Assembly: GCF_964355755.1 (NCBI RefSeq)
Contig: NC_092671.1
Location: forward strand, 22,711,070-22,775,069
Direction: 5' to 3'
Source of the DNA: Antedon mediterranea
Lineage: Eukaryota > Echinodermata > Crinoidea > Comatulida > Antedonidae
DNA: 64,000 nt
Shown: positions 4,271 through 63,150 of the stretch, one piece after another
Layout: every line of letters begins with the position of its first letter
Numbering within the stretch: position 1 is the first letter of the stretch
Translations under genes and position numbers: made by a program
Notes under the pieces: model-generated
The model's database searches: none
The model's input: the letters and a program-made list of their open reading frames with translations, nothing else
What the model was told of the DNA's origin: nothing

Positions 4271-4488
4271 CAGGCTGACAAACTTTTTTTAATGTTTTTG
4301 GTTTATGTCTACAGTAAAATTTTTATCCCAATTACTGAAATTCTATATTTTAATCTTGTTTAACCTTTTGTACTATAAATCGACTTTAAAGCACAGCAAG
4401 GATGGCATTCACTTATTTTTTTGTCGTTTCATGCCCTGACCTCTCTAATATTGATTAAAAACAAAAAGGAAAAAATAAGTTATCTCAC

Positions 4489-4880: not shown

Positions 4881-4992
4881 TGTTTTTTTAAGTCTAGAAG
4901 TAAAAATTTAATAGAAAATGATTTAAAATGAGATGTCATTTGGTACACTGTAAGTTTAATATTAATTGTATGGCCCACTATAAATACCAGTC

Positions 4993-42394: not shown

Positions 42395-42680
42395 CTATCT
42401 TTGACGCAAGTCTTGGTAGGTGTTTCGCCTCCATCCTTGTTGGCTATGCGAATTGTCAAATGTCATCTGACTCAGATTTCGTTGGCTACTAAGCGAATTA
42501 TCTAATGTCATTTGGCACAAAAAAGGTCGCGAACCATTAAAGGCTTTATGTCCGAATTCATGACAATCATTACATCTCACTGGATTATGATGGTGGCAGT
42601 CATTAGTTTCGTGGTTTTGTAGGCCGCATTTTTGGCATCTAGAGTGCCGAGTGATAAGCGGAGGTTGATACTGCCATCTT
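42395..42680 (-). CDS. Zinc-knuckle LINE: Gag-like N-terminal fragment
   Basis: Minus-strand frame with a CCHC knuckle CQKCGLQNHETNDC followed by a second, incomplete CNDCHEFGH unit, then TFDNSHSQQGW-type repeats and a TAG. The frame stays open upstream to 42808, but that stretch is palindrome-arm sequence (shared with 30614-30750) and not part of the LINE. Real LINE coding starts near 42680, 5'-truncated. Confidence 0.65.
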
Positions 42681-43254
42681 CTGCATTCGACTCGATTAGC
42701 ACACGAAAACCAGGTCAAAATGGCCCCTTTTTCAGCGGCGGGTAAGGTTTGACCGTATACAATGCAATGTGTGAAATGTAAAGCTTTCTTATGGCCCTCC
42801 CCATGCACATCTTCGCAACACGCTGCTTGGTTGGCCTATAGTGTTCGTTATAAGAAGACGAGATGTAATTATACGTCCATGGTTTAACCATGTAATGTAT
42901 AATATTTATTTCTTTTTAATTTATTTTTAATATGTCGAATGCAGTTTTAATGATGCACTCTTGGCGTTCCATATCTGTTCGTTTGTTCGTGTCGACACAT
43001 TCAGTATCAAATGGCGATATTTCTGTATTTTTTCAATCAATTGCTTGCTTGCGAGTATTATAATTATAAGGTATGGTTTAAAGATCTTTGGCTATGTTCG
43101 GCTTCGGGATGTTATACCACACTTAGGCCTAGGCTAGGCTAGGGGTTATCGGTTTCGTGTTATGGGTTGTCCAATTCTAGGTCGTCCAATTCGAGGTCGC
43201 CCGGGTCGTTGGGGTCGTCCAATTCGAGGTCGTCGCTTTCTACACACCCGGTCT
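42681..43254 (-). repeat. Palindrome right arm, outer part
   Basis: Inverse of 27461-27913 joined directly to 30611-30752, with no transposon between. It therefore preserves the empty insertion site of the 2.7-kb element. Contains the GGTCGTCCAATTCGAGGTCG short repeats. Confidence 0.8.
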
Positions 43255-43667
43255 GTGGCACTAGTGCAAGCTATAATTACTTTGCTCTGGGCATGTGCAA
43301 TAGCGTGTCGGATTCCCTAACGGTTTATAGAGTCAAGGCTCAGACATTTATACATAAAAACGACCATTCATTTTACACCCTAAAAATTCTCTATTAAAAT
43401 ACACTGTGACACAATCTATAAAGCAGCAGCACATGTTGTAGTATATGTCATCTTGAATTGATGACAAACACTATTATTATGAACAATTTTCAATGTAGGC
43501 CTTATATTTATATATTTGTAAAAAATAGTTATATCATGCCTGGAGTAATCTTTACTCTATGGTTATATTAATACTACTTACTAAATACTAGGCCTAGCTA
43601 GGCAGTCTTTTAATTAAAGTGTATACACTACTTCAAATCGGTTCTCATTGCTTTATATGAGAAGGGT
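43255..43667. other. Upstream region of chromodomain gene
   Basis: AT-rich, non-repetitive as far as can be seen. No clear TATA box or CpG island. The promoter and any 5'UTR exon of the downstream gene should lie here. Confidence 0.35.
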
Positions 43668-43745
43668 ATGTCAAGTTATAGGAGTGACAGACAGAAGATG
43701 TTACTAGCAAAAGCAGTTGAAAAAACTGGTTTGTTGGAAGAACAG
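43668..43745 (+). CDS. Chromodomain gene exon 1
   Basis: 26 codons starting ATG at 43668 (peptide MSSYRSDRQKMLLAKAVEKT...), phase 0 end at CAG|GTAAAA. A second donor AAA|GTAAGT six bases downstream would add two codons in frame. Confidence 0.55.
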
Positions 43746-46700
43746 GTAAAAGTAAGTAGGATAATTATAATGTAATATGTCTCTTAATCATATTATTAAT
43801 GCCATTTATGTCAATAAATGCTTTTTTTTTATTGTTGATCGTTCTTCTGGAATGCTTAATAGAGAGGCTAAATAAGTAATTTTTATTTTTTTATTGCTAC
43901 TGATTGTTTTAAACTGATTGTAGTTTCAACAAACATAATCACCAACACTCATGCCAAAAGCTCAAAACTCATCCAAAAAGCCTTTGATTTAGTTTGGTGA
44001 ATCGGTGATCTGTGTGTTCCACTTTCATAAAAAAAAATATATTACAATTGTTTATAAAATATTGAGTTTGTTTTGTAATAATATATTCAAGCTGTATCTA
44101 GTTTTTTGTATAGAGTATAACGATTATTATTAGAATTTGAAATAGAACAAAAAGAAAACAATTAATACTATATATTATATTATGTTCTTATAGGATTGGA
44201 TTGGCAACTACAAAAAAAAATTGTCCGGAAAAAAACGTCCCTGCAAGGAAAAGTTAAGAATAAGAAAACAAACGGGCCACCAGCTGTTCATGTCTGAACA
44301 CATAAAGGAAGGTGAATATAGATTGTAATAGTATGATTTGATTTGGCAAAATACATACATGAAATGGACATACAATAGAAAAGAGCCAGATAAAATGATA
44401 TACCCGTAAAAGTTTAAACTTATATTATATCAAATTAATATATTTTATGTATTTCATTAGAACTCGACAAAGGCAGAACTTATACCGATTGTCGTGTGAG
44501 TGGGCTAAAAAAGTGGCAGGGACTAAAACAGTCCAATGAATCTGCCAGTTATGAAGAACGGGCAAGACTGGCTTTGCCACTGCTCACGAAAAACCAAGGA
44601 AATTGAAAAGAAGGTTAGTAAAATTAATTTTCATGCAATGTGCATTGCTTGGCTTTTTAATATAAGTACTTGCTTCCCCAAATTGTTATTAAAGGTTATC
44701 AGAAGTTAAAACATACAAGCATTTAGATGATCAAATCGATAACAAACTTAAATTTGATGCAAAAATCAAGTTTATATACAATAAATTGAAAATGTGTAAC
44801 TTCTTTCAATGCAAGTTAAACTTATTTAGAATTGACTGCACCATTTTACAACATTTTAAATATAGTTTTATATAAGGACTTTAAAATTGGAAAAAAATTA
44901 ATATTATTTTAATTGAAATTACCTCTTTCATCCTCTTCACAATAAATTTGACAAAAGTAAGCATTGTAGCAGATTTACAACGGAAAAATCAAACCATGCA
45001 TACGTTTTATAATGAAATGTTGCTAATCAAGCAATTTAAAATTTGCTATAATTTCTTATAGATAGTGTAATATTGATTTTACTTTTATATTTTTCCTAGT
45101 CAATATTTTATTTTTTATTATCTTTTGTACAGTTAATAAGGCCAGTCGAGACATGTGTATTTCTGTTCTTTTGTGTACTAATTACCAACAATAATTATAT
45201 TTATGACAATGTACATAGATACCAGAAATAGTGAACCTTGGATGCCAGTGTATTGCTGTTATTTTGCATCCAAACAACGACACAATATTCTCCTTTGGGT
45301 CAGAGGAGGGTAATTATTTCATTGAGCAGGAGCAGCTTACAACCAAATTCTTATCGTTTAGTAACGGTAAGTAAAATAATTATATATCTATGGGTATATA
45401 AAATAATGAAAATAAATAACTTCAACCAAGATATTCAACTTACCTAAATAATTGATGAAACACAGAATGTTAAATACTAAAAGATTTTTTAAATAATAAT
45501 TGTAACATGACTTATGCTTACAATCTGATTTTAATCCATACAGGTCCAAATGCAACACAAGTAAATAAGAAGAAAAAGCTCAGACGAGAAGTGCAGGAGC
45601 TGTTAAATAACAAATTCAGTAAGTTCACAATTTTTTAAAATAAAGGATGTTTTGAATCAAAAATGTTATCCAAGTCAAACGTATTTTAAATTATTTTATA
45701 TTATTAATGCGATATCCACAGTATTTTGAATATTGCAATTTTCATATTTAATTTAATGTATTTTAAATATTTTCGTACAAGAATTTTAAATGTATTTTAA
45801 CATCTTACCTTTTCAAAAATATTACATTTTTGACAAATAAAGTATCCTATGTCTATACCAATCATCTAGAGTTTTTATCAAACTATTACTGTATTAATAA
45901 TTTATATGTACACTCATTATTATAAATTTACACTTCACTCTAAATTGTTAAACTCTGGGATGTTTTTTCAGAACAAGTATCAGGGAAAGATAGGGTGCCT
46001 AATACAAGGAGGTGATGAACGGAAAGTGGCGGGTTTGTGGCCTCGATCCTATTGGCTTTAAGCCAATAGGAAGGTACACTTACCAAGAACTTGAAAGCAT
46101 TATTGAAAAGAGCAATCACCTTAAATTTGAAGGCAAGTTTTAACTAAAATAAATGTGTTTCAGAAAATTTAGACTGACACACAGTCGCATGCATCAATGA
46201 TATCCAACTTTCGAATTATCAAACTATTTCATACCACAGTTTACCCTCATTAATCAGCATGCCACCTAACTTGTACCTCCATTTGTAAAAAAAGCAAACA
46301 TTAATCGCTTAAGAACATTTACAGTAATTAATAAACATTTTGAGGCCTTTCAGATTTTGGTTTTGTGAAAATTAATTTTGCAATTCTAGTGTATGTCAAT
46401 TAATCATCTGCAGTCATGACAGAAAGTAGTTTTTTGGATGATATTTAAATCTAAGAGATCTACAATATCTTTGAATTTGAAATTCTATAGTCAGTATCTA
46501 ATTTAACATTTTGTGCATGGTTAATATATAGTATATTAAGGCACACAACTATTTTCTTAAATAATATAGGTAAACAGTACTACTGTATTTCACTATAAAC
46601 TACATCTGCATATTGAATAAAATATAATTTATTGCAATTTATTCATCCACAGCAACAGAAAATGAAACAGTTATTGCTGATGGTAAGTTAAACATCATTT

Positions 46701-49700
46701 ACTTGATATTTAATGCAACCAAACAATTTGTTGTAAAAAGGTGTTCGAGTCTATTATATGATATAGTCTTTAAATAAAATATTTATTGCAATTTATTCAT
46801 CCACAGCAACAGAAAATGAAACAGTTATTGCTGATGGTAAGTTAAACATCATTTACTTGATGTCATATTATTTATGTTCTGATTCCCTGTGTTTAGATAA
46901 GGATGCTTTAGACCAGGTCCGCCTAATATTATTAGCCAATAAAAATCGTATAATTTTTGGAGGGAAAATGTTATCCTCCTCTGAAGCCTAAAATTTGCAT
47001 GTCCAGTATAAAAGTGGAATGTAATAGATATTAAAAGAAGGAGAGGAGAGAATAAGATCAAAGTAGATGTAATAATCACTACATGGTGGCAGCGGTGAAA
47101 ATTTTTGTTTAAGATACATGATTTAAGTATCAAGAAGAAGAAGAAGAAGAAGTGACAGTGCCTACTCTACGGGCCTGTTAAATCAGTAACCAAAAAGTTA
47201 AATGGTTACGAAGATCTGGATTCCTGACAGTTTTTATACCGTGCGTTGTTTGGATATTACAACGAAGAAGAAGTACTGTTGAGCTCAAGGCTGCTGGATA
47301 TTAATCGGAGATATATATTCACCGAGATCTGAAAGAAGAAAACTGAAGTCTGAAGTAACAGAAGGAAGCTGACTTTGCTGACGTTGTTTGTGACTTTGAA
47401 GTAAATTAATGACTTAGATTGTATTGCATTAAAAAATTTATGTGGATTTCATATTTTTACATATCTGAATGGAATCAAGGTAATACAAATACTTTTATAA
47501 CATATTTTGTATACATAAGTTTACATATTTCATTAGTAAAATTGTTATTAGCATGACAACTTTAAGATCGGGTAAAAATATAGATAAGACTATGTCAGAA
47601 AAAGATACTAGGGAAGATATGGTTGACCAAGAAGAGGTTGACAAAGTCAATGAAATATATGATAAAATGGCTAGGGATATTGATTTGCCCGAAATACCCG
47701 GCGGTATGCCTAAAGATATGATGCTCGAATATTTTCGAATGAAGTTCGAGGCCGAAAACAAAAAGTTAGAATTACAATACCAACAAGACCAATTAAAAGC
47801 AGATATAGAGCAAAGAAAAATTGAATCACAAGAAAGAGTGAAAATGATGGAATTAGAAAATAGGTCTAGCTACAGTAATGCTAGGAATATAGTAGATGAA
47901 ATGAAGGTAAAGGTTCCTACTTTGAAGGAATCAGATGATATTGATATATATTTTAGAACATTTGAACACTTGGCAGAAGCCACAGGTTGGGATAAGAATA
48001 CGCGGTCCGCTAGGTTAGCACCTGAACTGTCTGGTAAAGCTAGGACAGCATATGCATCCTTAACCGTAAAAGAATGTGTAGATTATGATACCTTAAAGAA
48101 GGCAATCTTAGAAAAGTATGATGTGTCCGCAGAGACTTACAGATTTAAATTTAGAAATTCAAACAGAGTTAAAGATATGTCCATCAGGGAATGGCTGAAT
48201 GAGCTCTCCCATTATTTAAAATGTTGGATGAAATGTGCTAATGTAAAAGAAGATGATGCTGCAGGGATTATTGAAATGATTATAATGGAACAGGCACTTG
48301 ATAAAATGCCTGAAGATCTGAGGCTTTATCTTAGAGATAAACAAGTAAATAAGAGCTATGATATGGCTATGATAGCCGATGATTATATAGCTAATAGAGG
48401 TGGCCGTGGCTATTGGAATGCCGTAAATTCTGAAAATAAGCCTACGTATTATAAGGGCCAAGAAAATAGTAAACCTAAGAATAGTACGACTCAGAATAAC
48501 CCTGGAGCTAGGCAGCAAGGATACAATAGGTATCGCGGAAGGGGAGGCAAATTCCATAACTATGGTAGAAATTTCCAACAGAGAGAACCTTCAAATGAAT
48601 GGATTAATGGCCTATGCTTTAATTGTAAGGAGAAGGGACATAAAATAGGGGATTGTCCTAAGTTGGTAGCAAAAGGAAAGACTAGTGACACTAAGAAGGG
48701 CCCGAATGTGAAAGATGGCTTAAGATGTGAAGGAATAAAATCAGATAGACCCCAAGTAGTTATGGATAGTGTAGAAAATAAAATGGAGAAGTGTACAATA
48801 CCAGGAAAATTAGAAGGACAGGATATAACTATGCTAAGAGACTCGGGATGTACCCAGTCAGCTGTTAAAGGCCAGGTGCGGGCAAAAAATTTCTATTGAT
48901 CATACATTCCAATAATTATCGATCTATAGTTTCCCCTATGTTTCATAATTTTTGGGATTTTATTTGTGTTACACAAGCTTGTTGAAAATAAGCACTTTCT
49001 TATCAGTGGGGGGATAGTTCAAATTACACAGTAAAATCTCTATTCTTTTGTACACAAATTTTGTAAATAGAGAGGCATTTTAAAAAGCTATGAAAAATAA
49101 ACGGTGTGGTAAAAAAATGTTATCAGATGACTAAATATAGGTAATGTAACTTTAATATTCAATTTCTGATATTTTTATTCAACTTCAGCTTTTTATTTTC
49201 ATGCTATAGCAAAAATTATCCACTGTATATCCACCATCTTTTTTCACTGTCTAGGGAGTCACCAGACATGTTATTACATTAGGTTAACTACCTAACTACT
49301 GAAAAAAAGTGTTTCTGTTTTTTATGGAAGAATTTTGCCAAATTTTGTATTTGACCATATTAAGGGAAATTTATGTTTTTTCGTTTTGATTTCTGTTACA
49401 AATATTTGATTTATGTACAATTAACCAAATATTATATTTAAAATTCATGCCTGTACCTGAGCTTTAAGGAAAGTCTAGTGCCTAACAAATGTTACTTGCC
49501 AGGAAAATGGGTTACGTTAAGAGGTATAGGAGGCGATATTACCGTCCCCTTAGCTGAGGTAGCTATAGAAAGTAAGATAGTGACAGGAAAAGTGATTGTA
49601 GCCGTAATCGAAGGATTACAGAGGGACATGTTATTGGGTCATGATTTGGACCAGAATTGTGGGGAAACAATGGCTAAAGAAATGTTCGTCCTAACTAGGG

Positions 49701-52700
49701 AGCAAGCCAGAATAGAAAATGATGTTAGAATACAAGACGAAATGATATTGCTAGGAAAAGATAGTAACTTTAAGCCGATAGAAGAGCCGCCTAAAGAAAC
49801 TAATGTACAATTGTTGAAAACAGTAGTAAATGACAACAAAGTAAATAAAACTAAGTGTTTAGATGATATGAATGGAACAGAAATGAATAATTTGTTTGAC
49901 GAAAATGAGGATAAAGCTAAAGATAAAACAGTCAAACATAAAACTTATGAACAACAGCACAAGCTGAACCTAACTAAACAAGAACTGATCAAATTGCAAA
50001 CTAAAGATGACTCACTCAAAGGAGTGTTTGACAGGGTAGTCCCTATAGAAGAAATAGGTCAGCATAGGGTGTGTTTCTTTATGAGACAAGGTATATTGAT
50101 GAGAAATTGGAGTAGTATTAAAGATAAGAATAACCAAGTGGAACAGATTGTATTACCCACTCAGTGTAGACAGGGTGTATTACACTTAGGTCATAATGTG
50201 CCATTTGCAGGTCACATGGGTGTTGAGAAAACTAAAAGTAGGGTCCTGAACCAATTCTATTGGCCAGGTATATTTAAAGATGTGGTAGTCTATTGTAAAG
50301 TCTGTAAGGAATGCCAAAAGGTAGATAAGGGTAAAAGTAAAAGGAAACATACTTTGATACCATTTACCGATTATAAGTACACCATTTAAACGTATAGCGA
50401 TAGACATTGTTGGACCCTTATCTAGAACAAGCCGTAATAACAAATATATGCTTACTATAATTGACTATGCTACGAGATTTCCGGATGCTATCCCGTTACC
50501 CAATGTTAGAGCTGAAACAGTAGCCAGGGCTCTAATAGAAGTCTTTACTAGAGTAGGATTACCCGAAGAGATTGTACATGATCAAGGAACTAATTTCATG
50601 TCTTCAATTATGCAATCTATATGTAGTATGTTGGGGATTAATCAATTAAAGACTACAGTGTACCACCCCCAAAGCAATGGGCTTGTTGAAAGATTTCACG
50701 GTACATTGAAAAATATGATAAGGACACTTACAGTTAAGCAAAGAAAAAATTGGGATAACTACATACCCCCCTTTCTGTTTGCATACAGAGAAGTTCCTAG
50801 TAAAGCGACGGGCCATTCACCTTTTAAATTGCTTTATGGTAGAGAGGTGAGGGGACCCTTGAGTTTACTCAAAAGTAATTGGGTAGAAGATGAAGAAACA
50901 TCTACTGATGTTATCAAATACATGTTAGACATAAGAGAAAAAATGGAGGAATTAATGAAAGATGCTAATGTAAACAAACTTGAACAACAAGAAATTATGT
51001 CCCACAATTATAACAAGAATGCTATTGATAGAAAATTTGTAGAAGGGGACAAAGTGTTAATATTCCTTCCAGTAGGAAATAGTAAGTTAGACAGTAAATG
51101 GCAAGGCCCCTTCACTGTTACAAAAAAGGTCAATGATGTAAATTATGAAATATACATAGGAGGTAGAAGAAAAGAAAAACAAATTCTACATGTTAATATG
51201 TTAAAGAGATGGTATGATAAAGTAGAAATAAGTAAAGATGGCTATTATGTAGTAACAAATGTCCAGTCGATAGAAGAAGTAGACTTAAATGAAACAGTCC
51301 ATGACAATGAGTTAGATAGTGAAATAGACATAGGATTGTCTTATCATCAATCACAAACATGGAGAGATGTTAACGTTAGTAGTAATTTAAATGATACACA
51401 AACTAAACAATTAACAGAATTGTTAAAGTACCAACAGAATGTATTCTCGGATGTACCAGGTAGAACTCACTTGGTGTGGTAGTATGCAATATCGATCTAG
51501 CGCCACCTAGCGGGGATCGAGGGAGGGTTTAACATGGACGCGAGTCACGACAGTTGATATGTTGAATAAATGTTATTTGGATTGTGTTTAACGGTAGTCC
51601 TATGTACGTCTGTTTAAGTACAGTGTAGCGACAACAAACAAAGCATAATATGGTGTCAGAAGTGTGTCTGAATCGACTCATCCAACGCTCAGAAAGGTCA
51701 GTAACGATCGATTTCCGAGATACCTACCCCAGCGGTAGCCTAGCCTAGCGAGAATAGCGAGAGCGGTTGAACGCTCACACAACGACGTACGACGGTGGAC
51801 GATTGTAAACAAGTTGCATAGCAACCACAACGCAGTAAACCGCACAGCCTAGCCTAGGAATTGAAGAGATTTGAACTCCGTAAGTTATTCAGTAATTATA
51901 AGAATAATTATGGCAACGTTCATAAAGCCACCTGAAACATTAATTGTAGATGGTGGTAATCCATCACACGCATGGAACAAGTGGAAGAGGAAATTTGAGA
52001 TTTACCTCAAAGCAACAGGGAACTCAAAGAAAGAAACCGAAATCAAAGTAGGTCTGTTGCTAAACTGTATAGGCGATAACAGCATTGACATCTACACAAA
52101 TTTTAAATTCAAGCCTGCAATGCAAAATCCAGAAAATGAAGAAGAAATCCCAGCTGAGGATCCGAACGACTACACAGTTATAATGAACAAATTTGACGAA
52201 CACTTTTCTCGGCGCAACCCACAACTAATGTTACGGCAACAGTTCTGGCATCACTTACAGCGAGAACCAGGCCAGTCATTTGATTCATGGGTCACGACGG
52301 TGAAAGAAAGGGCGGCAGAGTGTAAATTCCCAAAGGAATTTCAAGAAGAAGCAGTTAGAGACAAATTAACATTTTCGTGTACTAACGACAGCTACAAGCT
52401 GAAATTATACGACGAGGGTGCAAAGTTATCCTTGACTAAAACTATTAGAATCCTTGCACTGAAAGAGGCATCTAGTCAAGAACTCCAGAAGTCTAAAACC
52501 GCAACCATTGACCAAGTCCGACCTAAACCAAAGCCGAGACCAGCAACGCAGGGGCAAACCAAGAAACAATACTCACACAACAAGGCAGCCCGCCCACAAA
52601 CGAATGAGGGGAAATGTCAGAAATGTGGATATTGTGGAAAGTCTCACCCATATGGAAAACAGAACTGTCCAGCAAAATCAGCAACTTGTAATGCATGCGG

Positions 52701-55700
52701 GAAAACTGGTCACTATAAGGTAGTGTGTAGATCAACTGCAAGCCGATCAAGCAGAGTCAACCAAGTCGATGACGAACACCCTTTCCTGATTAGTGGTGTT
52801 AGTGTCCAACAAGTTAACAGGTCACAGTTGAAAGATGCACACAAACAACCTGGATGGCACATCAAACTCAGAGCAGCCGATCAAGAACTGTCATGGTGTA
52901 TTGATACCGGTGCACAAGTTTCAGTGATGCCAAATATAGTGTATAAAAACCGATTCGGAGAAATGTTCCCAACCGACAAGACGCTAGTGGGTACAGGCGA
53001 TACACCACTGAAAACACGAGGATTTGTGGACATGAAGCTGAAACAACAACATGGAAACAACTCGGAGATAGAAGAAAGAGTATATATAGTCGAGAATGCA
53101 ACAACACTACTGCTAGGAGTTCCAGCAATTCGCAACCTTGGACTGATCCATGAGATACCAGGAACCTATAGTGTGAAAGCAGTTGACGTCAATTCTCCAA
53201 TTACAAAGGAGAAAATAAAGGAAGAATACCCAGGACTATTCAGAAGCCTTGGTAAATTAGACGGTGAATATACCATCAAACTGAAGGAAGATACCAAACC
53301 ATTTTGCCTTACAACACCAAGAAGAATTGCCCTACCACTGCTTGAAAAGACAAAGGCCGAGTTAGAGAGGATGGTGCAACTTGAAGTTATCGAACCAATC
53401 GATGAACCAACCCACTGGTGCGCACCTACAGTTGTGGTGCCGAAGCAAAATGGAGATGTACGAATTTGTGTTGACTTAACGAAGCTGAATCAGTCAGTAC
53501 GAAGAGAACTATATCATATGCCAAAGGTAGAAGAGACACTTGGTAAGGTGGCGAATGGAACAGTGTTCTCAAAACTCGATGCAAACTCAGGGTTTCACCA
53601 GGTGAAGCTGAGCCTAGAAAGCACAAAACTAACTACCTTCATTACACCTTTTGGGAGGTATGTGTTTAAACGTCTTCCTTATGGGATATCGTCAGCACCG
53701 GAGTACTTCCAAAAGCAGATGGACCGAGAGCTGAGAGGTCTAGAAGGTGTTGTATGTCATATGGACGACATTCTGATCACTGGCAGCAATCAGACAGAGC
53801 ACGACAATAGGCTCAATGCAGTACTGAAGAGATTAGACAAAAGTGGTCTAACTCTAAATAGTGCGAAATGCAAATTCTCTCAGACGAAACTGGATTACTT
53901 GGGCCAGATAATCGATGGTGAAGGATTGAGAAAAGACCCAAAGAAAATCGAAGCAATTATGAAAATGCAACCACCCACCAATGTCACGGAACTCAGACAG
54001 TTCCTAGGAATGGTAAACCAACAGATGAAATTCGTTCCTAACCTGGCAGAGACCACCAAACCATTACGGGATCTCATGAAGAAGGAAAATGAATAGGTTT
54101 GGGACCAAGCTCAACAAGAAACATTCGTCAAGATACAGAATGAACTAAGCTCAGACAGAGTACTGAAACTCTACAGCACCACAAAAGAAACCGTTATATC
54201 AGCCGATGCGAGCAGTTTTGGACTAGGTGCTGTGCTTCTACAGAAACAAGAAAATGGCGAGCTGAGACCAGTAGCCTATGCAAGTAGATCCATGACGGCA
54301 ACGGAACGCAGATATGCACAGATCGAAAAAGAAGCACTTGCCACCACATGGTCACTTGAACATTGGGCCGATCTGTTAGTGGGACTCAAGTTTAGAGTCC
54401 AAACCGACCACAAACCATTGGTTCCACTTTTCTCTACCAAGAACATTGACGAACTCCCTATACGAGTTCAGAGATTCCGAATGCGTCTGATGAGGTTTAA
54501 CTTTGATATAAACCATGTGCCCGGGAAGTTATTGTACACAGCCAATGCACTGTCAAGATCGCCGAGGCACAAAGAAAGACGTGCAAACGAAGAGATCGAC
54601 CGTGAAGAAAAGTTAAGGAATGAGGTAGAATGTTTCGTAAACAGCGTGATGGTGACTCTACCAGCATCAGACAAGAGACTGGAGGAGATAAGGTCAGAAC
54701 TGCGAAAAGACGACACTCTAAAAATGGTGACGTACCATGTTCAAGAAGGATGGAACGAGAAATCAGAGGCATCCGGCTATCTGCACAGCTACTGGAAAGA
54801 AAGAGGTAGCCTTTCTGTACATGAAGGCCTCCTCCTAAAGAGCAAACGTCTAGTAATCCCTCCAAAACTCAGAACAGATATTCTACGTTGTCTACATGAC
54901 AGTCACCAAGGAATTACAAAGATGAGAGCAAATGCAATGTCTTCAGTATGGTGGCCAGGGATATCGAGAGACATAGAGAAAGTTGTGAGGAACTGCGAGA
55001 TGTGCGCAAGATACAGGAGAAGTCAAGCAGAACCAATGCGAGGAACAGAGTTCCCAAACCGACCATGGTCTAGAGTTGGTACCGACTTTTTCCATTACAA
55101 GGGACGTAACTATCTACTTGCTGTAGATTATTACTCAAGAGACATTGAGGTCTGCATTGTCACAAAGAATGTATTTACGAAAAAAACTGTTGCCAAATTG
55201 AAGAAAATATTCAGTCGTCAAGGCATACCAGACGTCCTGTTCTCAGACAATGGACCACAATACAGCTCTGACGAATTCAAAGCATTTGCACAGAGCTGGA
55301 GATTTGAACATGTAACATCATCCCCTCATTTCCCACAGTCAAACGGCGAGGCGGAACGAGCAGTACAAACCATCAAATCCTTCATGAACAAGTGTGACGA
55401 TGAGTATTTGGCAATGCTACAGTACCGTAACACACCACTTCAAAATGGGTATTCACCAACACAGTTGAATATGAGTCGGAGACTAAAGACAAGAGTGCCA
55501 TGCCACCCAGAAGAGCTCCGACCAAAACTACCAGACCAGACTGACCTTAGACAGAAAGAGGAGAGATATAGACGTGAAATGAAGAGAAACTTTGACAACC
55601 GTCACAGAGCTGCAGATGCGGAACAACTAAGTCCGGGTGACAAAGTATATATACCGGACTTGAAACGTCACGGAACAATCACGGGATACCACAAGGCACC

Positions 55701-58700
55701 CAGGTCCGTGTACATCGATACGGATGGAAAAACAGTGAGAAGAAATCGTGCAATGACACGGAAGCTCACTAACAAGGATGTGATGATGCAAGAACAACCA
55801 AAGGAGAGAGATGGTGAGGTGAAGGAAAACCAAACTCCAACCAATCACGATCACTCCAGCGATGCGGGAACGCCAACTGAAGCGGACATCCACAACAACC
55901 CGAAGCCACCGGAAGCATCAACACCATCGAATACCAGACCACAACGGAACCGGCGAAGACCACGTTATTTGGATGAATATGTAACATCCTAATTTCATAT
56001 AATGAACACTGATCTATAATCACTCACCAAAAATAAAAACACTGAACACTGATTTGATAATGAACAATATCGGACCTTTATTGAAACACAGATGGAAATT
56101 CAATGATTGACATGATCTTACTCTAAATGTTAATTTGTGTTTAAAGTTAAAGTTTAGTTGCTGCGCGACTTAAAATTATAAAGCTGATTAATCAATCTCT
56201 AAAAAAAAAAGGGAGATGTGGTAGTATGCAATATTGATCTAGCGCCACCTAGCGGGGATCGAGGGAGGGTTTAACATGGACGCGAGTCACGACAGTTGAT
56301 ATGTTGAATAAATGTTATTTGGATTGTGTTTAACGGTAGTCCTATGTACGTCTGTTTAAGTACAGTGTAGCGACAACAAACAAAGCATAATACTTGGTGA
56401 CACATGAAATTAAGACTAATGGTGAAATGCCTATAAGGCATAGGGCATATAGAACGCCCCAAGCATTAAAGGGTAAATTGAAAGAGGAATTAGATAGTAT
56501 GTTGGCTATGGGTATAATAGAACCTACAGTTAGTGCCTATGCTGCACCTATTATTGCCCTGAAGAAAGGCCAGAATCAAATTAGAATGGTGACAGATTTT
56601 AGATCACTAAATAAGACTACACAATTTGACCCTTATGTTATGCCTCGCATAGACGAAATGTTGGATGAGGTATCATCCGCAATATACATAACTACGTTAG
56701 ATCTAACTAAAGGATTTTACCAGGTGCCTCTGGATCCTAAGACCAAAGACAAATCAGCATTTGTTACACAATTTGGACAGTATTGTTACAATGTACTTCC
56801 ATTTGGTATGCAAAATAGCTCTAGTACTTTCCAAAGATTAATGGATAAGGTATTACAAGGTACTGAGGGATATGCTAAGGCATATATAGATGACATATGT
56901 ATTTATAGTCAAACTTGGAAAGATCATATTTTTCATTTGAATGATGTATTAGAAAGATTAAGTAGTGCTGGATTGACAGCAAAGCCTTTGAAATGTAAAA
57001 TTGCCTATGCACAGGTAGAATTTCTGGGGCATAAGATTGGTAATGTAGAAATTAGACCCATGATTGATAAGGTTGAGGCTGTGGAAAAGTTCCCCAGACC
57101 TTTTGTCTAAAAAACAAGTCCGATCATTTCTCGGATTAACTGGCTATTACAGAAAATTTGTACAGAACTATGCCGATATTGCTAAGCCATTGATTGATTT
57201 AACTTTAAAGAGTAAAAGTAATACCGTTAAGTGGAATGAACAATGTGAAAATGCCTTTGTAACTTTAAAGAAACGACTTACTGATGATAATGTATTAAAA
57301 GCCCCAAATTTTGATAAGATGTTTTTATTGCAAACCGATGCCTCAAATTATGGCATAGGTGCAGTGCTGAGCCAAATAGATGGTGAGGGTAATGATTATC
57401 CCATTGTGTACTTAAGTAGAAAGTTATCTGTACATGAGCAGAGATATTCTGTGCCAGAAAAAGAGTGCCTCTCTATTGTTTGGGCTATCAATAAACTTAA
57501 GTATTATCTGTATGGTTGTGAATTTCAAGTTCATACTGACCACCAGGCATTGAGATGGATGGACTCAATGAAGGGTGCCAATGTTAGACTTATGAGATGG
57601 GCTCTGTTTTTACAAGAATATAAATTTAAAGTTATTTACAAGAAAGGATCATTAAATGGAAATGCAGATGGATTAAGCCGTGCATAATAATATTATAGAG
57701 GTGTTATTTGTAGATAGTTTATACTAAAATGGTTTTAAATGTTAAATTTTTGGAAAGATTGACACAATCTTTTTCCCAAAAAGGGGAATGTCATATTATT
57801 TATGTTCTGATTCCCTGTGTTTAGATAAGGATGCTTTAGACCAGGTCCGCCTAATATTATTAGCCAATCAAAATCGTATAATTTTTGGAGGGAAAATGTT
57901 ATCCTCCTCTAAAGCCTAAAATGTGCATGTCCAGTATAAAAGTGGAATTTAATAGATATTAAAATAAGGAGAGGAGAGAATAGATGTACGGAAAGATGAT
58001 AAAGAAATTAAGGCTTGACTGGTAGTGGTAGAAAGATGTATTAATCGAGTTACAAGGAATAAAAGTTCTAGTTGAGTTAAATATACTTTTTGTATGAGTT
58101 ATCATTCAGTGACAGCTGTGTACGTCGCGTGGAGTTATATACGCCTGAGAAAGCTCGGAACCAACTAAAATAATCACTACACTTGATATTTAATGCAACC
58201 AAACAATTTGTTGTAGAAAGGTGTTTGAGTCTATTATATGATATAGTAATTGAATAAAATATAATTTAATGCAATGTATTCATCCACAGCAACAGAAAAT
58301 GAAACAGTTATTGCTGATGGTAAGTTAAACATCATTTACTTGATATTTAATGCAACCAAACAATTTGTTGTAGAAAGGTGTTTGAGTCTATTATATGATA
58401 TAGTAATTGAATAAAATATAATTTATTGCAATTTATTCATCCACAGCAACAGAAAATGAAACAGTTCAAATTGCTGATGGTAAGTTAAACATCATTTACT
58501 TGATATTTAATGCAACCAAACAATTTGTTGTAGAAAGGTGTTCGAGTCTAATATATGATATAGTCATTGAATAAAATATAATTTATTGCAATTTATTCAT
58601 CCACAGCAACAGAAAATGAAACAGTTATTGCTGATGGTAAGTTAAACATCATTTACTTGATATTTAATGCAACCAAACAATTTGTTGTAGAAAGGTGTTT

Positions 58701-60520
58701 GAGTCTATTATATGATATAGTCATTGAATAAAATATAATTTATTGCAATTTATTCATCCACAGCAACAGAAAATGAAACAGTTATTGCTGATGGTAAGTT
58801 AAACATCATTTACTTGATATTTAATGCAACCAAACAATTTGTTGTAGAAAGGTGTTTGAGTCTATTATATGATATAGTACTGTAATTGAATAAAATATAA
58901 TTTATTGCAATTTATTCATCCACAGCAACAGAAAATGAAACAGTTATTGCTGATGGTAAGTTAAACATCATTTACTTGATATTTAATGCAACCAAACAAT
59001 TTGTTGTAGAAAGGTGTTCGAGTCTATTATATGATATAGTCATTGAATAAAATATTATTTATTGCAATTTATTCATCCACAGCAACAGAAAATGAAACAG
59101 TTATTGCTGATGGTAAGTTAAACATCATTTACTTGATATTTGATGTTATATTTGTTGATATATTAAAAATGTGTATTTAGTGTGAATCAAAATGTTTATA
59201 CAGTATTTACTTTTCTTTGTGATATTCTTCACAATGAACATAATTCTTCCACAGCTGAAATTGAAGGTACCATTAGGCCTCACGAAGTGTTAATTGATTT
59301 TGGTGGGTAACACATTTAGCAAACCTACTTAAATTTAAAACAGCAACACATACAATGAATACAATTGTGTTAAAGGCCAGGTGCGGGCAAAAAAATTCTA
59401 TTGATCATACATTCCAATAATTATTGATCTATAGTTTCCCCTATGTTTCATAATTTTTGGGATTTTATTTGTGTTACACGAGCTTGTTGAAAATAAGCAC
59501 TTTCTTATCAGTGGGGGGATAGTTCAAATTACACAGTAAAATCTCTATTCTTTTGTACACACATTTTGTAAATAGAGGGGCATTTTAAAAAGCTACGAAA
59601 AGTAAACAATGTGGTAAAAAATGTTATCAGATGAATAAGTATAGGTAATATAACTTAAATATTACATTTCTGGAATTTTTATTCAACTTCAAATTTTTAT
59701 TTTCATGCTATAGCAAAAATTATCCACCGTATATCCACCATCTTTTTTCACCTTCTAGGGAGTCACAAGACATGTTATTACATTAGGTTAACTACCTAAC
59801 TACTGAAAAAAGGTCTTCCTGGTTTTTATGGAAGAATTTTGCAAAATTTTGTATTTGGCCATATTAAGGGAAATTCATGTTTTTTCGTGTTGATTTCTGT
59901 TACAAATATTTGATTTATGTACAATTAACCAAATATTATATTTAAAATTCATGCCTGTACCTGAGCTTTAAAGACTTGACAGAATATGGAATGACCTATG
60001 AGCAATACAGTGTTATAGTTCTTTAAAAAAAATAAAATTAAAAAAATTATTTGACAGTTAATTGACCTTAACACAACAGTATACACTAGACTAAGTTTTT
60101 ACTCAATAAAGTGTCCTTGTGCATAATTAAATTCAAAGAAATTTTTTAAATAGCAATAGCACATACATTCAAATTAGAGAGTAGGGAACCTCAAGAAAAT
60201 GTTTTAACAATTAATGCTTAACTGTTTTTTTTCCCAGAAAAAAATACAGATTTAGCAAACATTTGTTCGGAGATTGGGCATACCAGTAAGAAAACTGAGT
60301 TGAAAGAAGGTAATCAAATATTGTTTTGGAAACACAGTTTGTTTAACTTATTTTCATGCTTGTAAAAATTGCTTTTTTTTTTTCAGGATTTTATGCATTT
60401 GAAAAAATATTAAAAAAGAAAAAGAAGAAAGGACAATTTATGTACCAAGTAAAGTGGGTTGGCTTCAAAAAACCTACCTGGGAGCCAGAAGCAAATGTTC
60501 CAGAACATTTGAGGATTTAA
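43668..60520 (+). CDS. Chromodomain protein with tandem microexon array (host gene, spliced)
   Basis: Predicted spliced gene of about 17 exons and ~410 codons. Exons: 43668-43745, 44194-44311, 44461-44613, 45219-45366, 45544-45618, 45972-46132, eight microexons (46653-59112), 59255-59302, 60238-60310 and 60387-60520. Splice sites are GT-AG except one GC donor at 46133. Most boundaries after exon 2 are phase 1. The N-terminal ~250 residues are a basic, globular-looking region I cannot assign. The middle is an acidic repeat and the C-terminus a chromodomain, so a histone-methyl-lysine or chromatin-binding role is inferred. Exons 3, 6 and 60238-60310 each need a one-base correction to keep frame. 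Either the assembly has run-length errors or the gene is decaying. Neighbour structure suggests a native gene rather than a transposon. Confidence 0.65.
44194..44311 (+). CDS. Chromodomain gene exon 2
   Basis: TTCTTATAG acceptor, 118 nt, phase 0 to 1, donor GGTGAAT. Lys-rich peptide (KKKLSGKKRPCKEKLRIRK), probably nucleic-acid binding or nuclear-targeting. Confidence 0.6.
44461..44613 (+). CDS. Chromodomain gene exon 3, one-base disruption
   Basis: TTTCATTAG acceptor, phase 1. Reads ELDKGRTYTDCRVSGLKKWQ ... YEERARLALPLLTK. One extra A in the five-A run at ~44590 causes a stop. Without it the exon would end in phase 0 at AAG|GTTAGT, which fits the phase-0 start of the next exon. Confidence 0.6.
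45219..45366 (+). CDS. Chromodomain gene exon 4
   Basis: ACATAG acceptor, phase 0, 148 nt, donor GGTAAGT, phase 1. Peptide IPEIVNLGCQCIAVILHPNN ... FSFGSEEGNYFIEQ looks like a compact beta/alpha domain that I cannot name. Confidence 0.65.
45544..45618 (+). CDS. Chromodomain gene exon 5
   Basis: ATACAG acceptor, 75 nt, phase 1 to 1, donor GTAAGT. Basic helix-like peptide NKKKKLRREVQELLNNKF. Confidence 0.65.
45972..46132 (+). CDS. Chromodomain gene exon 6, GC donor, one-base disruption
   Basis: TTTTTTCAG acceptor, 161 nt. Frame 1 gives KQVSGKDRVPNT. The rest (NGKWRVCGLDPIGFKPIGRY, then TYQELESIIEKSNHLKFE) is one base out of frame after ~46008. Length 161 is one short of a phase-1 symmetric exon. 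The donor is GCAAGT, the standard non-canonical GC-AG type. Confidence 0.55.
46653..46836 (+). repeat. Microexons 1-2 of the tandem array (46653-46682, 46807-46836)
   Basis: Each 30-nt exon is preceded by TTCATCCACAG and followed by GTAAGTTAAAC. With the preceding phase-1 base each encodes ATENETVIAD. Start-to-start distance is 154 bp. Confidence 0.85.
46861..47083 (+). repeat. Gmr1-like 5' LTR (internally deleted)
   Basis: 223 bp against 393 bp for the 3' LTR. The two align at both ends but this one lacks ~170 bp after GGAGAGGAGAGAATA. Unlike the 3' LTR it keeps an AATAAA at ~46937. Confidence 0.85.
47553..48868 (+). CDS. Gmr1-like Gag and start of protease
   Basis: Start ATG at 47553. Residues ~70-110 are a charged coiled-coil-like region. 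Residues ~120-280 are a capsid with a SCAN-like part (RFKFRNSNRVKDMSIREWL, then IIMEQALDKMPEDLRLYL). SCAN domains of vertebrate zinc-finger proteins are thought to derive from Gmr1-like capsids. A glycine/arginine-rich stretch precedes a CCHC knuckle, CFNCKEKGHKIGDC (residues ~355-368). The protease begins with the catalytic DSG at ~48841 and is interrupted by the MITE at 48869. Encodes particle formation and RNA packaging. Confidence 0.85.
48869..49463. mobile_element. TTAA-flanked MITE, copy 1 (in Gmr1 protease)
   Basis: 595 bp with ends AGGCCAGGTGCGGGC and (inverse) AGCTCAGGTACAGGC, flanked by TTAA at 48865-48868 and 49464-49467. The pol frame resumes after the second TTAA. TTAA target sites are typical of piggyBac and Kolobok superfamilies; no transposase, so not resolved. 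Confidence 0.85.
49464..51474 (+). CDS. Gmr1-like protease remainder, integrase and RT leader
   Basis: Protease end (LLGHDLD at ~49645), a charged linker, then integrase. The zinc-binding HHCC motif is HLGHNVPFAGH ... CKVCKEC (~50185-50320). Catalytic residues: D in AIDIVGPL (~50400), D in VHDQGTNF (~50575), E in NGLVERFHG (~50690). A C-terminal GPF module, KWQGPFTV, is at ~51100. A one-base insertion in the ATTTA run near 50362 shifts frame between the zinc and catalytic parts. The frame runs on into the RT leader (FSDVPGRTHL) and is cut at 51474 by the nested element. Confidence 0.85.
51500..51513 (-). promoter_or_regulatory. CTCF-like core motif in nested 5' LTR
   Basis: The minus strand reads CCGCTAGGTGGCGC, matching the core of the bilaterian CTCF consensus (CCRSYAGRKGGCR type). 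Found by eye; binding is inference. Confidence 0.4.
51910..54096 (+). CDS. Nested Gypsy Gag-protease-RT, ending at a premature TAG
   Basis: ATG at 51910 is the likely start; the frame is open from before 51871. The capsid (to residue ~210) has NPQLMLRQQFWHHLQREPGQ. Two zinc knuckles follow: CGYCGKSHPYGKQNC and CNACGKTGHYKVVC at about 52620-52735. The protease has WCIDTGAQVSVMP (~52895) and LLLGVPAIRNLGL. RT motifs: PTVVVPKQNGDVRICVDLTK, FSKLDANSGFHQV, and catalytic CHMDDILITG at ~53760. A TAG at 54094-54096 separates RT from RNase H in the same frame. With near-identical LTRs this is probably a recent nonsense change. Confidence 0.92.
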   Translation: MATFIKPPETLIVDGGNPSHAWNKWKRKFEIYLKATGNSKKETEIKVGLLLNCIGDNSIDIYTNFKFKPAMQNPENEEEIPAEDPNDYTVIMNKFDEHFSRRNPQLMLRQQFWHHLQREPGQSFDSWVTTVKERAAECKFPKEFQEEAVRDKLTFSCTNDSYKLKLYDEGAKLSLTKTIRILALKEASSQELQKSKTATIDQVRPKPKPRPATQGQTKKQYSHNKAARPQTNEGKCQKCGYCGKSHPYGKQNCPAKSATCNACGKTGHYKVVCRSTASRSSRVNQVDDEHPFLISGVSVQQVNRSQLKDAHKQPGWHIKLRAADQELSWCIDTGAQVSVMPNIVYKNRFGEMFPTDKTLVGTGDTPLKTRGFVDMKLKQQHGNNSEIEERVYIVENATTLLLGVPAIRNLGLIHEIPGTYSVKAVDVNSPITKEKIKEEYPGLFRSLGKLDGEYTIKLKEDTKPFCLTTPRRIALPLLEKTKAELERMVQLEVIEPIDEPTHWCAPTVVVPKQNGDVRICVDLTKLNQSVRRELYHMPKVEETLGKVANGTVFSKLDANSGFHQVKLSLESTKLTTFITPFGRYVFKRLPYGISSAPEYFQKQMDRELRGLEGVVCHMDDILITGSNQTEHDNRLNAVLKRLDKSGLTLNSAKCKFSQTKLDYLGQIIDGEGLRKDPKKIEAIMKMQPPTNVTELRQFLGMVNQQMKFVPNLAETTKPLRDLMKKENE
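54097..55992 (+). CDS. Nested Gypsy RNase H and integrase
   Basis: Same frame as the upstream Gag-RT part, directly after its TAG. RNase H motifs: SADASSFGLGAVL, EKEALATTW, QTDHKPLVPL and the final NALSR at ~54545. Integrase: zinc motif HDSHQ ... CEMCARYR (~54895-55010); catalytic D in VGTDFFHYKG, D in FSDNGPQYSS, E in NGEAERAVQT (to ~55360). The C-terminal tail is polar, ending at TAA 55992. All catalytic residues are present, so apart from the TAG the element looks intact. Confidence 0.92.
   Translation, partial: VWDQAQQETFVKIQNELSSDRVLKLYSTTKETVISADASSFGLGAVLLQKQENGELRPVAYASRSMTATERRYAQIEKEALATTWSLEHWADLLVGLKFRVQTDHKPLVPLFSTKNIDELPIRVQRFRMRLMRFNFDINHVPGKLLYTANALSRSPRHKERRANEEIDREEKLRNEVECFVNSVMVTLPASDKRLEEIRSELRKDDTLKMVTYHVQEGWNEKSEASGYLHSYWKERGSLSVHEGLLLKSKRLVIPPKLRTDILRCLHDSHQGITKMRANAMSSVWWPGISRDIEKVVRNCEMCARYRRSQAEPMRGTEFPNRPWSRVGTDFFHYKGRNYLLAVDYYSRDIEVCIVTKNVFTKKTVAKLKKIFSRQGIPDVLFSDNGPQYSSDEFKAFAQSWRFEHVTSSPHFPQSNGEAERAVQTIKSFMNKCDDEYLAMLQYRNTPLQNGYSPTQLNMSRRLKTRVPCHPEELRPKLPDQTDLRQKEERYRREMKRNFDNRHRAADAEQLSPGDKVYIPDLKRHGTITGYHKAPRSVYIDTDGKTVRRNRAMTRKLTNKDVMMQEQPKERDGEVKENQTPTNHDHSSDAGTPTEADIHNNPKPPEASTPSNTRPQRNRRRPRYLDEYVTS
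56242..56255 (-). promoter_or_regulatory. CTCF-like core motif in nested 3' LTR
   Basis: Identical to 51500-51513 and in the same orientation, 4.7 kb away. Confidence 0.4.
56393..57107 (+). CDS. Gmr1-like reverse transcriptase (resumes after nested element)
   Basis: Continues the frame broken at 51474. RT motifs: GIIEPTVSAYAAPIIALKKG, RMVTDFRSLNKTT, TLDLTKGFYQVPL, FGMQNSSSTFQRLM, and catalytic AYIDDICIY at ~56885. A one-base insertion in the T run at ~57103 shifts the frame just before the connection domain. Confidence 0.9.
57108..57687 (+). CDS. Gmr1-like RT connection and RNase H (pol C-terminus)
   Basis: Begins KKQVRSFLGLTGYYRKFVQN. RNase H residues: D in LQTDASNYGIGAVL, E in PEKECLSIVW, D in VHTDHQALRW, D in NADGLSRA. 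A stop (57685-57687) follows only ~100 bp before the 3' LTR. This shows RNase H is the last domain and the integrase does not follow it. Confidence 0.9.
57789..58181 (+). repeat. Gmr1-like 3' LTR (full length)
   Basis: 393 bp, starts TGTCATATTATTTATG and ends TAATCACTACA. Contains AATAAA at ~58060 within the 170 bp that the 5' LTR lacks. Confidence 0.88.
58290..59112 (+). repeat. Microexons 3-8 of the tandem array
   Basis: Exons at 58290-58319, 58447-58479, 58607-58636, 58764-58793, 58926-58955 and 59083-59112. Five are 30 nt (ATENETVIAD). The second is 33 nt with an inserted Gln (ATENETVQIAD). All have CCACAG acceptors and GTAAGT donors, and the ~127-bp introns are nearly identical. Unit length is 157-162 bp. 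Every exon is phase 1 on both sides, so any subset can be spliced without changing frame. Confidence 0.88.
59255..59302 (+). CDS. Chromodomain gene exon after the array
   Basis: TTCCACAG acceptor, 48 nt, phase 1 to 1 (AEIEGTIRPHEVLIDFG), donor GTGGGT. A shorter 12-nt version ending at GAAG|GTACCA is also possible. Confidence 0.5.
59374..59967. mobile_element. TTAA-flanked MITE, copy 2 (host intron)
   Basis: 594 bp, very similar to 48869-49463 in the same orientation, flanked by TTAA at 59370-59373 and 59968-59971. Confidence 0.85.
60238..60310 (+). CDS. Chromodomain gene penultimate exon
   Basis: TTTTCCCAG acceptor, 73 nt, donor GGTAATC. Peptide NTDLANICSEIGHTSKKTEL. The run of eight A at its start makes it one base too long for the phase-1 pattern; seven would fit. 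Phase-1 end joins the last exon. Confidence 0.55.
60387..60520 (+). CDS. Chromodomain, terminal exon
   Basis: TTTTTTTCAG acceptor, phase 1. Encodes a complete chromodomain core: FYAFEKILKKK, then YQVKWVGFKKPTWEPEANVP and a TAA at 60518. The usual methyl-lysine cage positions carry Tyr (FYAFEKI), Trp (VKW) and Phe (VGF). The protein ends a few residues after the C-terminal helix start (EHLRI), so the helix is short. Binding to methylated histone is the common role of this domain; here it is inferred. Confidence 0.85.
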
Positions 60521-60919
60521 ATTTACAAAATGCATTTATAAATGTACTTTTCCCTTTATGTTTTTTTTTCATCTATTTTAAGCTGCTTTTCATGTTAAAT
60601 TAAATACTATACTGGCCTATTACAATAATTTTCTTCCATCTTTAAGCAGTGAAGATCTGAAGCGTACGATGTTCGTATGTTACCGCTGTTTACCAACTAG
60701 GCCTATACAACTTTTTTAAAGTAATATACAGTATATGCATATTTTTTACAAAACGTCAACAATTGCAGGGAAAGTGTCTTTTATGTTTAACTTTACAACC
60801 AGTTACCAGTATTATACTAATGTTTATTTTACTATAATTTTAGCCTACAAATAACCTCAAAGCAAACATAGGCAAATATATGAAATATTATACACATTGT
60901 TACTATTTTTTGTAAACAA

Positions 60920-60925
60920 AATAAA
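60920..60925 (+). terminator. Candidate poly(A) signal of chromodomain gene
   Basis: AATAAA 400 bp after the stop codon, in an AT-rich 3' region without other genes. Confidence 0.45.
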
Positions 60926-63150
60926 ACACAAATATTGTTGTTGTGAAGTATCTTATAATATAATACTACATAATTGAATTGGAAGAACTTTAGGCTGGGC
61001 ACCCAGCACATATTACATCTCTGATTTTCTTACCCATACTATAATGCTCAGATCGCAAAAACTTTATACACAAAAAGCTTTTAAATCATAGAATGGATTT
61101 AAATTCTGTGTCACACAAAAAAGTATCAAAATATAAACCAATACTGAGTAATTATGACAATGATCTTCTGCGGTGAGACTATTTGCAGTTAACTGAACAC
61201 ACAAGTTCTCGACATTAGTTTGCATTTAGTAGTCAGGTTCTGGCACGTTGCCACCTGGATTTTTAGGCCAGGTAGCAATATTTTGGGTTGCTAAAGGCCA
61301 AGTGGCAAAATTCCAGGTGACAACAAGCCTAGACCCAATAGGTAATTATCAGGGGTGGTCGCAGGACTATTTTAAGAGGGTTGCCCAAGAGTCCAGGGCC
61401 ATAATAGAAACCAAGCATTTACGCCACAGGTTTGTAAATTACTACGGAATTTCGGCCTAATTTTACGGTCGTAGAGAAATGAAAAAAAAATCCACTGACC
61501 GTCGTTAAATTGTGCGCGGTTAATTTTACGCTGCAGTCAGTCGATTTACATATAGACTCTTCCAACAATGGACTTCTATAACAACGTTAATATGGTTAAT
61601 ATATGCCTATGATGAAGTGGGATCTAAATTTTAGTTTAGTGGCAGAAAAAAACATTTAGTATGAAATTAAGGGTGTTGCCCGGGCAACTGGGGCAACATC
61701 CCTGCGTCCGCCCTATGCATAAGTTATCTTTTTAAACTGGTACTGTACATTTATTTTTTTTAATGGCAACTTTAATGACTTACTTTTTATTTCTGCCATT
61801 TGAGTACATAAAATACAAGATGACAAGAAGAGCCAGTTTGGTATTTTCTTCTTTCTTTCTGTTTATTCCCTCAATTGTTACATGTAGTTTGGTACTACTA
61901 CTATCTACTATTTTAGCAACCAATAAGTTACCCACATGTGGGTGGAGGAGAAGCAAAGACCAAATAACAGCGTAATTAAGTGCCATGCTAAATATTATTT
62001 TATTGGAACATTTATAGAAAAGATAACGTTATGACGCACCATACATACTGTACATCTTGGTCTAATAAATAATCATGCAAGGTCTTCGATGCCATTCTAA
62101 AACATTTAAAAAACAATGTATGATGGTATGAGAATCAAGTGGCCTCAAACTGCAATAGGCATAGGGCCTATTCGGCACCGAAGAAATTGCATCCGCACCT
62201 AGGAAGTTGTTGCTTACGCGTCGTGGGTCTTTTGCAGGTATGTATGACTATTATGAAATGGAGTGGGTATGCTAGCTGGCCTAACATGCCTATACTATAG
62301 TACACCCCCCACTCACCCCCGCCCGGAAAATGGCAACAAAAGTACCCACCACTATGCCTACTGTAGGCCGGGTATGTCCAGAGGGACCTCCCCCTAGCTA
62401 GAGTATACTATTAGCCATGGCCTAGCCTACTATCCCCGGGCCCTACTCACTACTACTAGCCTAGATACTGTACTTCCAGGCCTAGGCGGCTTGTAGTTAG
62501 CGGGTGGGGGATAGCCTATGCTAGCCAAAGTAAGACCTAACATTTGGGTACGACGCCCGAATTCGCCGGGTTGGCAATGAAATGGGTAGTAGTTGGTTCG
62601 GGTACGAATTGACCAGCACCCTTCAAATTCAGGCCTAGTTGGGCCTAGAGAGTGTGTGACGCAGCAGGCTAAGCCCCCACCTGCCACGAACTATTTTACG
62701 TCACTTTTTTTACCTATAAAAATGTGATCCTTTACCAAAAAATATACTAGATATATAAGTTAAAAATGTAAGCGTGGAATTTTGAATTTGTTGTGTAAAT
62801 ATTTAAAAAAAAATTTAATATTACATAAACTCCGTACACAAAATCCGTCTGCTAACTGGTAGCTGTCTGACGTCAGCAGCGCTCTAAATGCGATTGTATT
62901 ATAACATGCAAGAGCAATATCATCATGCATGTACTTGTGACCAATGACAGACAGTATCCATGTACATGCTTGACAACTGCACAACGGTGAACCATATACA
63001 TGGTAACAGTTACAGAATCGGGTGAATTTATTCCCCTGTCTGATCGGATGATTCTTGCTGGTGCACAAATAACCATGGAATAACAAAGAATCTACGAAGA
63101 GCATTTATTAAACTTGAAGACGACATCGATTCTAATACTTCGATGTGTAC
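60926..63150. other. Intergenic with repeat scraps
   Basis: Contains a degraded repeat with TTGCCCGGGCAAC (61677-61690) and a GC-richer, CTAG/GGCCTA-rich patch at 62270-62700. Open frames here show no recognisable motif. Confidence 0.4.

Follow-up and report, generated by a model that had tools for sequence, protein, structure and literature searches.

Symmetric phase-1 exons in the acidic spacer of a GTF2I-like and chromodomain gene family of Antedon mediterranea: probable growth by exon duplication in separate branches

Main finding

Analysis of a locus in Antedon mediterranea and of its paralogues points to a small animal gene family in which one TFII-I (GTF2I)-like repeat appears to be joined to a C-terminal chromodomain, with an acidic spacer between the two domains predicted to be encoded in RNA by symmetric phase-1 exons. 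Eight such exons are present at the locus studied here. Taking gene models, paralogues and unit comparisons together, we consider it likely that they are the spacer array of this family, that such arrays have grown by duplication of symmetric exons in separate branches, and that the present copy is decaying.

Results and discussion

Eight phase-1 exons in a chromodomain gene

The window, that is the whole stretch of DNA analysed, comprises 64 kb of contig NC_092671.1; coordinates are window positions, and all features listed below lie on the + strand. Scanning both strands of the window for the pattern CCACAG-N(12-60)-GTAAGT returned eight matches on the + strand and none on the - strand, and these are exactly the eight perfect microexons that a first-pass annotation had proposed. 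They span positions 46653-59112 and are bordered by CCACAG and GTAAGT in all eight cases. Seven are an identical 30 nt with the peptide (A)TENETVIAD, and the exon at 58447 has 33 nt and reads ATENETVQIAD. The resulting spacer has 24 acidic and no basic residues. Comparison with the paralogues gave a gene model of 17 exons (A-F, the eight spacer exons and G-I), with AG acceptors and GT donors throughout, the sole exception being a GC donor after exon F. All eight units fall in phase 1 of this model, which bears out their earlier description as exon-like, symmetric and in frame. The exons are given below with the evidence for each; C2b and C7a are close paralogues and G3 is a distant one.

43668..43751, +, exon A, with the first ATG, MSSYRSDRQKMLLAKAVEKTGLLEEQVK; open frame at both the window and C2b, GT donor, distant homologue in G3
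44194..44311, +, exon B; AG/GT borders, conserved in C2b and G3
44461..44613, +, exon C; compared with C2b and C7a, 47 bp missing at about 44584 and the reading frame closed by a TGA
45219..45366, +, exon D; gene model, tblastn within the window
45544..45618, +, exon E, initial part of the GTF2I-like repeat; gene model, Pfam
45972..46132, +, exon F, which completes the GTF2I-like repeat; 2-bp insertion absent from C2b and C7a, GC donor (gcaagt)
46653..46682, +, spacer exon 1 (ATENETVIAD); this and the other spacer exons from border scan, gene model and unit comparison
46807..46836, +, spacer exon 2
58290..58319, +, spacer exon 3
58447..58479, +, spacer exon 4, 33 nt (ATENETVQIAD)
58607..58636, +, spacer exon 5
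58764..58793, +, spacer exon 6
58926..58955, +, spacer exon 7
59083..59112, +, spacer exon 8
59255..59302, +, exon G, phase 1, EIEGTIRPHEVLIDF; gene model
60238..60309, +, exon H; gene model
60387..60520, +, exon I, C-terminal chromodomain and stop; Pfam Chromo E 5.2e-7, PDB Polycomb/HP1 chains, best E 2.8e-6

In the window and C2b, exons A-F and I measure 75-200 nt. The modelled protein runs from a basic N-terminus through the GTF2I-like repeat and the acidic spacer to the C-terminal chromodomain; the spacer had been placed directly before the chromodomain, but exons G and H, with about 40 residues, intervene. Apart from the modelled exons, a tblastn search for further gene copies inside the window gave weak, chance-level matches only.

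The assignment of these exons to a chromodomain gene was upheld by Pfam, where the window-based protein scores 29.9 bits for Chromo (cut-off 25.1; E 5.2e-7), and the closest solved relatives of the domain are Polycomb and HP1-type chains (PDB, best E 2.8e-6). In the window/C2b branch, the GTF2I-like repeat scores 17.9 and 24.1 bits, under the Pfam cut-off of 27, and the PDB chains 2dn5, 2dzr and 2eje match this region weakly (E 0.053-0.26). One GTF2I stretch was found per scanned protein (window, C2b and G3). In the N-terminal region, Pfam gave no domain above cut-off in C2b or G3. An HMG box or homeodomain was considered for this region and rejected, as C2b gave just Homeobox_KN with E 0.26 and G3 gave DUF3528 with E 0.026, below cut-off.

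Transposons in and around the gene

The units had been described as a tandem array. Their near-identity stands, with pairwise identities of 95.5-100%, i.e. differences of 0-4.5%, among the seven units with a complete intron in the window, in agreement with the earlier remark that the unit introns are nearly as conserved as the exons. The array is, however, split by a nest of LTR retrotransposons (46861-58181) that had been overlooked. Tandem Repeats Finder reports a 157-bp repeat of 6.1 copies with 96% matches at 58181-59145, and copies 1-2 are separated from copies 3-8 by 11.3 kb of transposon DNA. The split is due to insertion of an LTR retrotransposon in the intron after copy 2, which now consists of about 11.5 kb of retrotransposons. 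The elements recognized are the following.

46861..58181, +, outer LTR retrotransposon with its nested insertions, lying between spacer exons 2 and 3; repeat family D4, 97% over 195 bp, Pfam
48869..49463, +, MITE inside the outer element, TTAA-flanked; repeat families D2/D3, 93% and 96%
51475..56392, +, inner LTR retrotransposon; repeat family D5, 99%, reverse transcriptase, RNase H and integrase
59374..59967, +, sister MITE in the host intron after exon G, TTAA-flanked; repeat families D2/D3

The LTRs of the outer element lie at about 46861-47083 and 57789-58181 and are flanked by the target duplication CTTGA (46856-46860 and 58182-58186); their divergence is best taken from the clean part, 195 bp at 97%, since a longer alignment (13 differences of 221) includes a misaligned tail. 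The inner element has LTRs at 51475-51650 and 56217-56392 that are 99% alike, and a target duplication CTTGG. Pfam matches to a SCAN-type gag, integrase, reverse transcriptase and RNase H occur in separate pieces of the nest, the gag-like piece of the outer element matching the SCAN domain at 34.9 bits (cut-off 27), and both elements have interrupted reading frames. The MITE at 59374-59967 is absent from the corresponding place in all four related loci described below (C2b, C3, C7a and C7b). The MITE copies are about 600 bp long with similar inverted ends, and pieces 92-93% alike also match the region of the G3 locus. Elsewhere in the window, non-LTR retrotransposon frames with a reverse transcriptase domain lie immediately upstream of the gene (34057-37218 on the + strand and 38797-42835 on the - strand), and a WD40-repeat coding exon of a different gene lies at 4485-4907 on the - strand.

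Close paralogues in the genome

A genome DNA search that used 101 bases around the first unit as query, and scored best candidates only, gave at least 17 matches at five loci, each of them, among the matches listed, a copy of the gene. The loci are the window with eight spacer exons, C2b (C2:34.38 Mb) with four, C3:12.93 Mb and C7a (C7:7.13 Mb) with two each, and C7b (C7:10.37 Mb) with one; this range of copy numbers supports the recent expansion of the array suggested by the first-pass annotation. The nearest paralogue, C2b, is open throughout, with 13 exons, 385 aa and four spacer exons in which acidic and basic residues number 12 and 0. The C3:12.93 Mb locus is partial, with spacer exons of 30 and 36 nt and homology that starts just upstream of the array. 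C7a is likewise partial, only part of exon C together with exons E and F being recognized from the A-F set. C7b is degenerate, with a single 30-nt unit and a deletion in the chromodomain exon; a possible 45-nt phase-1 exon, starting CTGCAGAAAGC, follows its unit and was not seen in the other copies. A genome protein search, again with best candidates only scored, gave at least 23 matches, all of those listed falling at the window, C2b, C7a and C3; as neither G3 nor C7b is among them, the size of the family given here is a lower bound.

Decay of the window copy and alternative readings

Relative to both C2b and C7a, exon C of the window lacks 47 bp, with an in-frame TGA as a result, and exon F has two extra bases; both lesions lie upstream of the array. 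They cancel in length, so that the array and the chromodomain are back in frame and the stretch between the lesions is misread. Given the deletion with its TGA and the insertion, the window copy would be unable to make the full modelled protein. Between the window and C2b, coding exons diverge by 1.51% and introns by 1.81%, the latter figure being inflated by one block (14 of 177) misaligned around an indel, and the codon differences outside the array are eight nonsynonymous and six synonymous. With exon divergence this close to that of introns, the window-C2b comparison gives no signal of selection on C2b and hence no support for constraint on it. The window locus is best read, from these sequence comparisons, as a decaying duplicate that carries the longest array.

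The first-pass annotation had proposed that the array can create protein isoforms; for the window copy this is not supported, in view of the TGA in exon C, the 2-bp insertion in exon F and the intron-like divergence of the exons. A version of it could be salvaged if the locus were a working or re-started shorter gene whose isoforms differ in spacer length. Exon F has an ATG at 46015 that opens a 204-aa frame; this takes in the eight spacer exons and ends at the stop of the chromodomain exon, and every one of the spacer exons retains both splice sites and its frame. The 204-aa frame holds just part of the GTF2I-like repeat and has no known promoter, and any transcript would have to contend with the retrotransposon-filled intron after spacer exon 2; we judge such a gene unlikely. 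The near-uniformity of exons and introns within the window could also suggest that the units are an intronic non-coding satellite whose exon-like look is due to chance. Yet none of the 17 spacer exons at the five loci contains a stop, and the 33- and 36-nt variants, with changes of +3 and +6, stay in frame. Moreover, the phase fits both neighbouring exons at the window and at C2b, the distant paralogue G3 has phase-1 exons at the same place, and the unit DNA matched, among the matches listed, only the five gene copies. A chance resemblance is therefore hard to credit.

A further question is how the copies arose. The homology between the window and C2b covers 43324-63032 of the window with introns retained, and a self-comparison of the C2b segment found no terminal direct or inverted repeats, a combination that fits segmental duplication. 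The location of copies on three contigs (C2, C3 and C7) with differing ends might favour spread of the gene as transposon cargo. The long, intron-containing homology and the missing terminal repeats, for which this candidate was rejected, make such a history very improbable.

The distant branch

In a genome search with the GTF2I family, four places were matched, three of them above cut-off; the 14 control genomes of that search gave no match. One of the four places, G3 (C3:13.52 Mb), yields an open model of nine exons and 381 aa with the exon order of C2b, and its protein is 30% identical to that of C2b (E 3e-52 in a single-pair comparison). Both domains of G3 are clearly recognized, GTF2I with 61.0 bits (cut-off 27) and Chromo with 54.4 bits (cut-off 25.1). 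The spacer between them is made up of three phase-1 exons (69, 72 and 60 nt), which together specify 67 residues, 21 acidic and two basic. The three form a tandem set of duplicates: exons 1 and 2, flanks included, are 73% identical over 130 nt, and exon 3 resembles them in shorter matches at its borders. They are unlike the ATENETVIAD unit in sequence, and homology between the spacer exons of G3 and those of the window/C2b branch is not demonstrable from sequence. As judged from structure, the presence of tandem phase-1 spacer exons in both branches points to a shared mode of growth, and duplication of symmetric exons seems to have lengthened the spacer in two old branches of the family.

Right after the third spacer exon of G3 there is a possible fourth exon of 12 nt, ATAAGCCTACAG, between AG and GTATGT, and the same motif occurs in G2, another of the three places above cut-off. 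The latter looks like a decayed relative of G3, with a TGA in the GTF2I exon and recognizable counterparts of the three G3 spacer exons. At G7, where the GTF2I match is over the cut-off, no chromodomain match was found within the surrounding 18 kb. The fourth GTF2I place, on C9, is below cut-off.

Evolution of the array

The four units of C2b follow an A-B-A-B pattern, in which units 1 and 3 share one flank variant and units 2 and 4 another, the 60-nt upstream flanks of the latter pair being identical, as if a block of two units had doubled. The simplest history would begin with a two-unit ancestor, from which the four units of C2b and the eight of the window copy may have been derived. Each spacer exon forms part of a short unit of exon and intron that behaves like a minisatellite, and the probable mechanism of unit gain and loss is unequal exchange, which would add or remove whole exons with the frame intact. 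The distant member G3 would have built its own spacer from three other tandem-duplicated phase-1 exons. The window copy would be a duplicate in decay, its frame broken before the array begins and the array itself invaded by nested retrotransposons. In working members, the array is predicted to set the length and negative charge of the spacer between the GTF2I-like domain and a chromodomain of putative methyl-histone-reader type, and this spacer may vary by gene copy and perhaps by splicing.

Across the 17 units of the five loci, variable sites number 10 of 30 in the exon and 2 of 50 in the flanking intron (Fisher p 0.0007), and across the 16 units other than that of C7b they number 7 of 30 against 2 of 50 (p 0.012); as the units are related and not independent, these p values serve as a guide only. 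The window units by themselves have 0 of 30 variable exon sites against 2 of 50 in the flanks (p 0.53). With the window exons invariant, the contrast between exon and flank comes from the paralogues, which are themselves related. A more general proposition, which we offer tentatively and regard as possible rather than probable, is that exon duplication has a recurrent hot spot in the linker that joins the GTF2I-like repeat to the chromodomain. Separate branches would there build acidic linkers from tandem phase-1 exons, with locus-specific length and charge (1, 2, 2, 3, 4 and 8 exons) that might also vary between individuals and by splicing, and with exons drifting faster than their splice flanks.

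Comparison with known systems

Tiny symmetric exons whose gain or skipping keeps the frame recall the schistosome MEGs, in which, according to PMC4350168, the coding region consists mostly of very small symmetrical exons, splicing gives rise to pools of similar proteins, and one exon duplication in MEG-3 is associated with a transposon. MEG products are secreted parasite proteins, and in the window/C2b gene the bulk of the coding region is not in very small symmetric exons; these are confined to a spacer between two nuclear-type domains, in near-identical tandem copies. The same exon logic is seen in other proteins in the frog peptide genes (caerulein, magainin), which have tandem-duplicated exons (PMC3899252). 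There, each exon corresponds to one released peptide, whereas here the predicted effect is lengthening of an internal acidic spacer. Of tandem exon copies that retain their splice sites and frame, the window has eight, C2b four and G3 three.

With regard to domains, the family resembles TFII-I/GTF2I-repeat proteins in its GTF2I-like repeat, which is strong in G3 and below cut-off in the window/C2b branch. TFII-I proteins carry several GTF2I repeats and are not known to have a chromodomain; in the present proteins one repeat was found, joined to a chromodomain. The chromodomain, which is above cut-off and has Polycomb and HP1-type domains as its best solved relatives, differs from the situation in chromobox proteins in lying at the extreme C-terminus, the profile match of the window-based protein ending at position 41 of 53. 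Searches of an open-access library listed no paper on a fusion of a GTF2I repeat with a chromodomain; one of the papers listed merely has GTF2IRD2 as a table entry.

Conclusions

A striking exon array may sit in a dead copy, and in the present case it is the paralogues, not the window, that hold the live question. If the open paralogues are expressed, they and their decayed relatives would offer a natural series for the effects of linker length and charge in a two-domain chromatin protein: one member with four exons, one with three of a different kind, and decayed arrays that are shorter or longer. They would also be a case of exon-bearing minisatellites that alter a protein without loss of frame.
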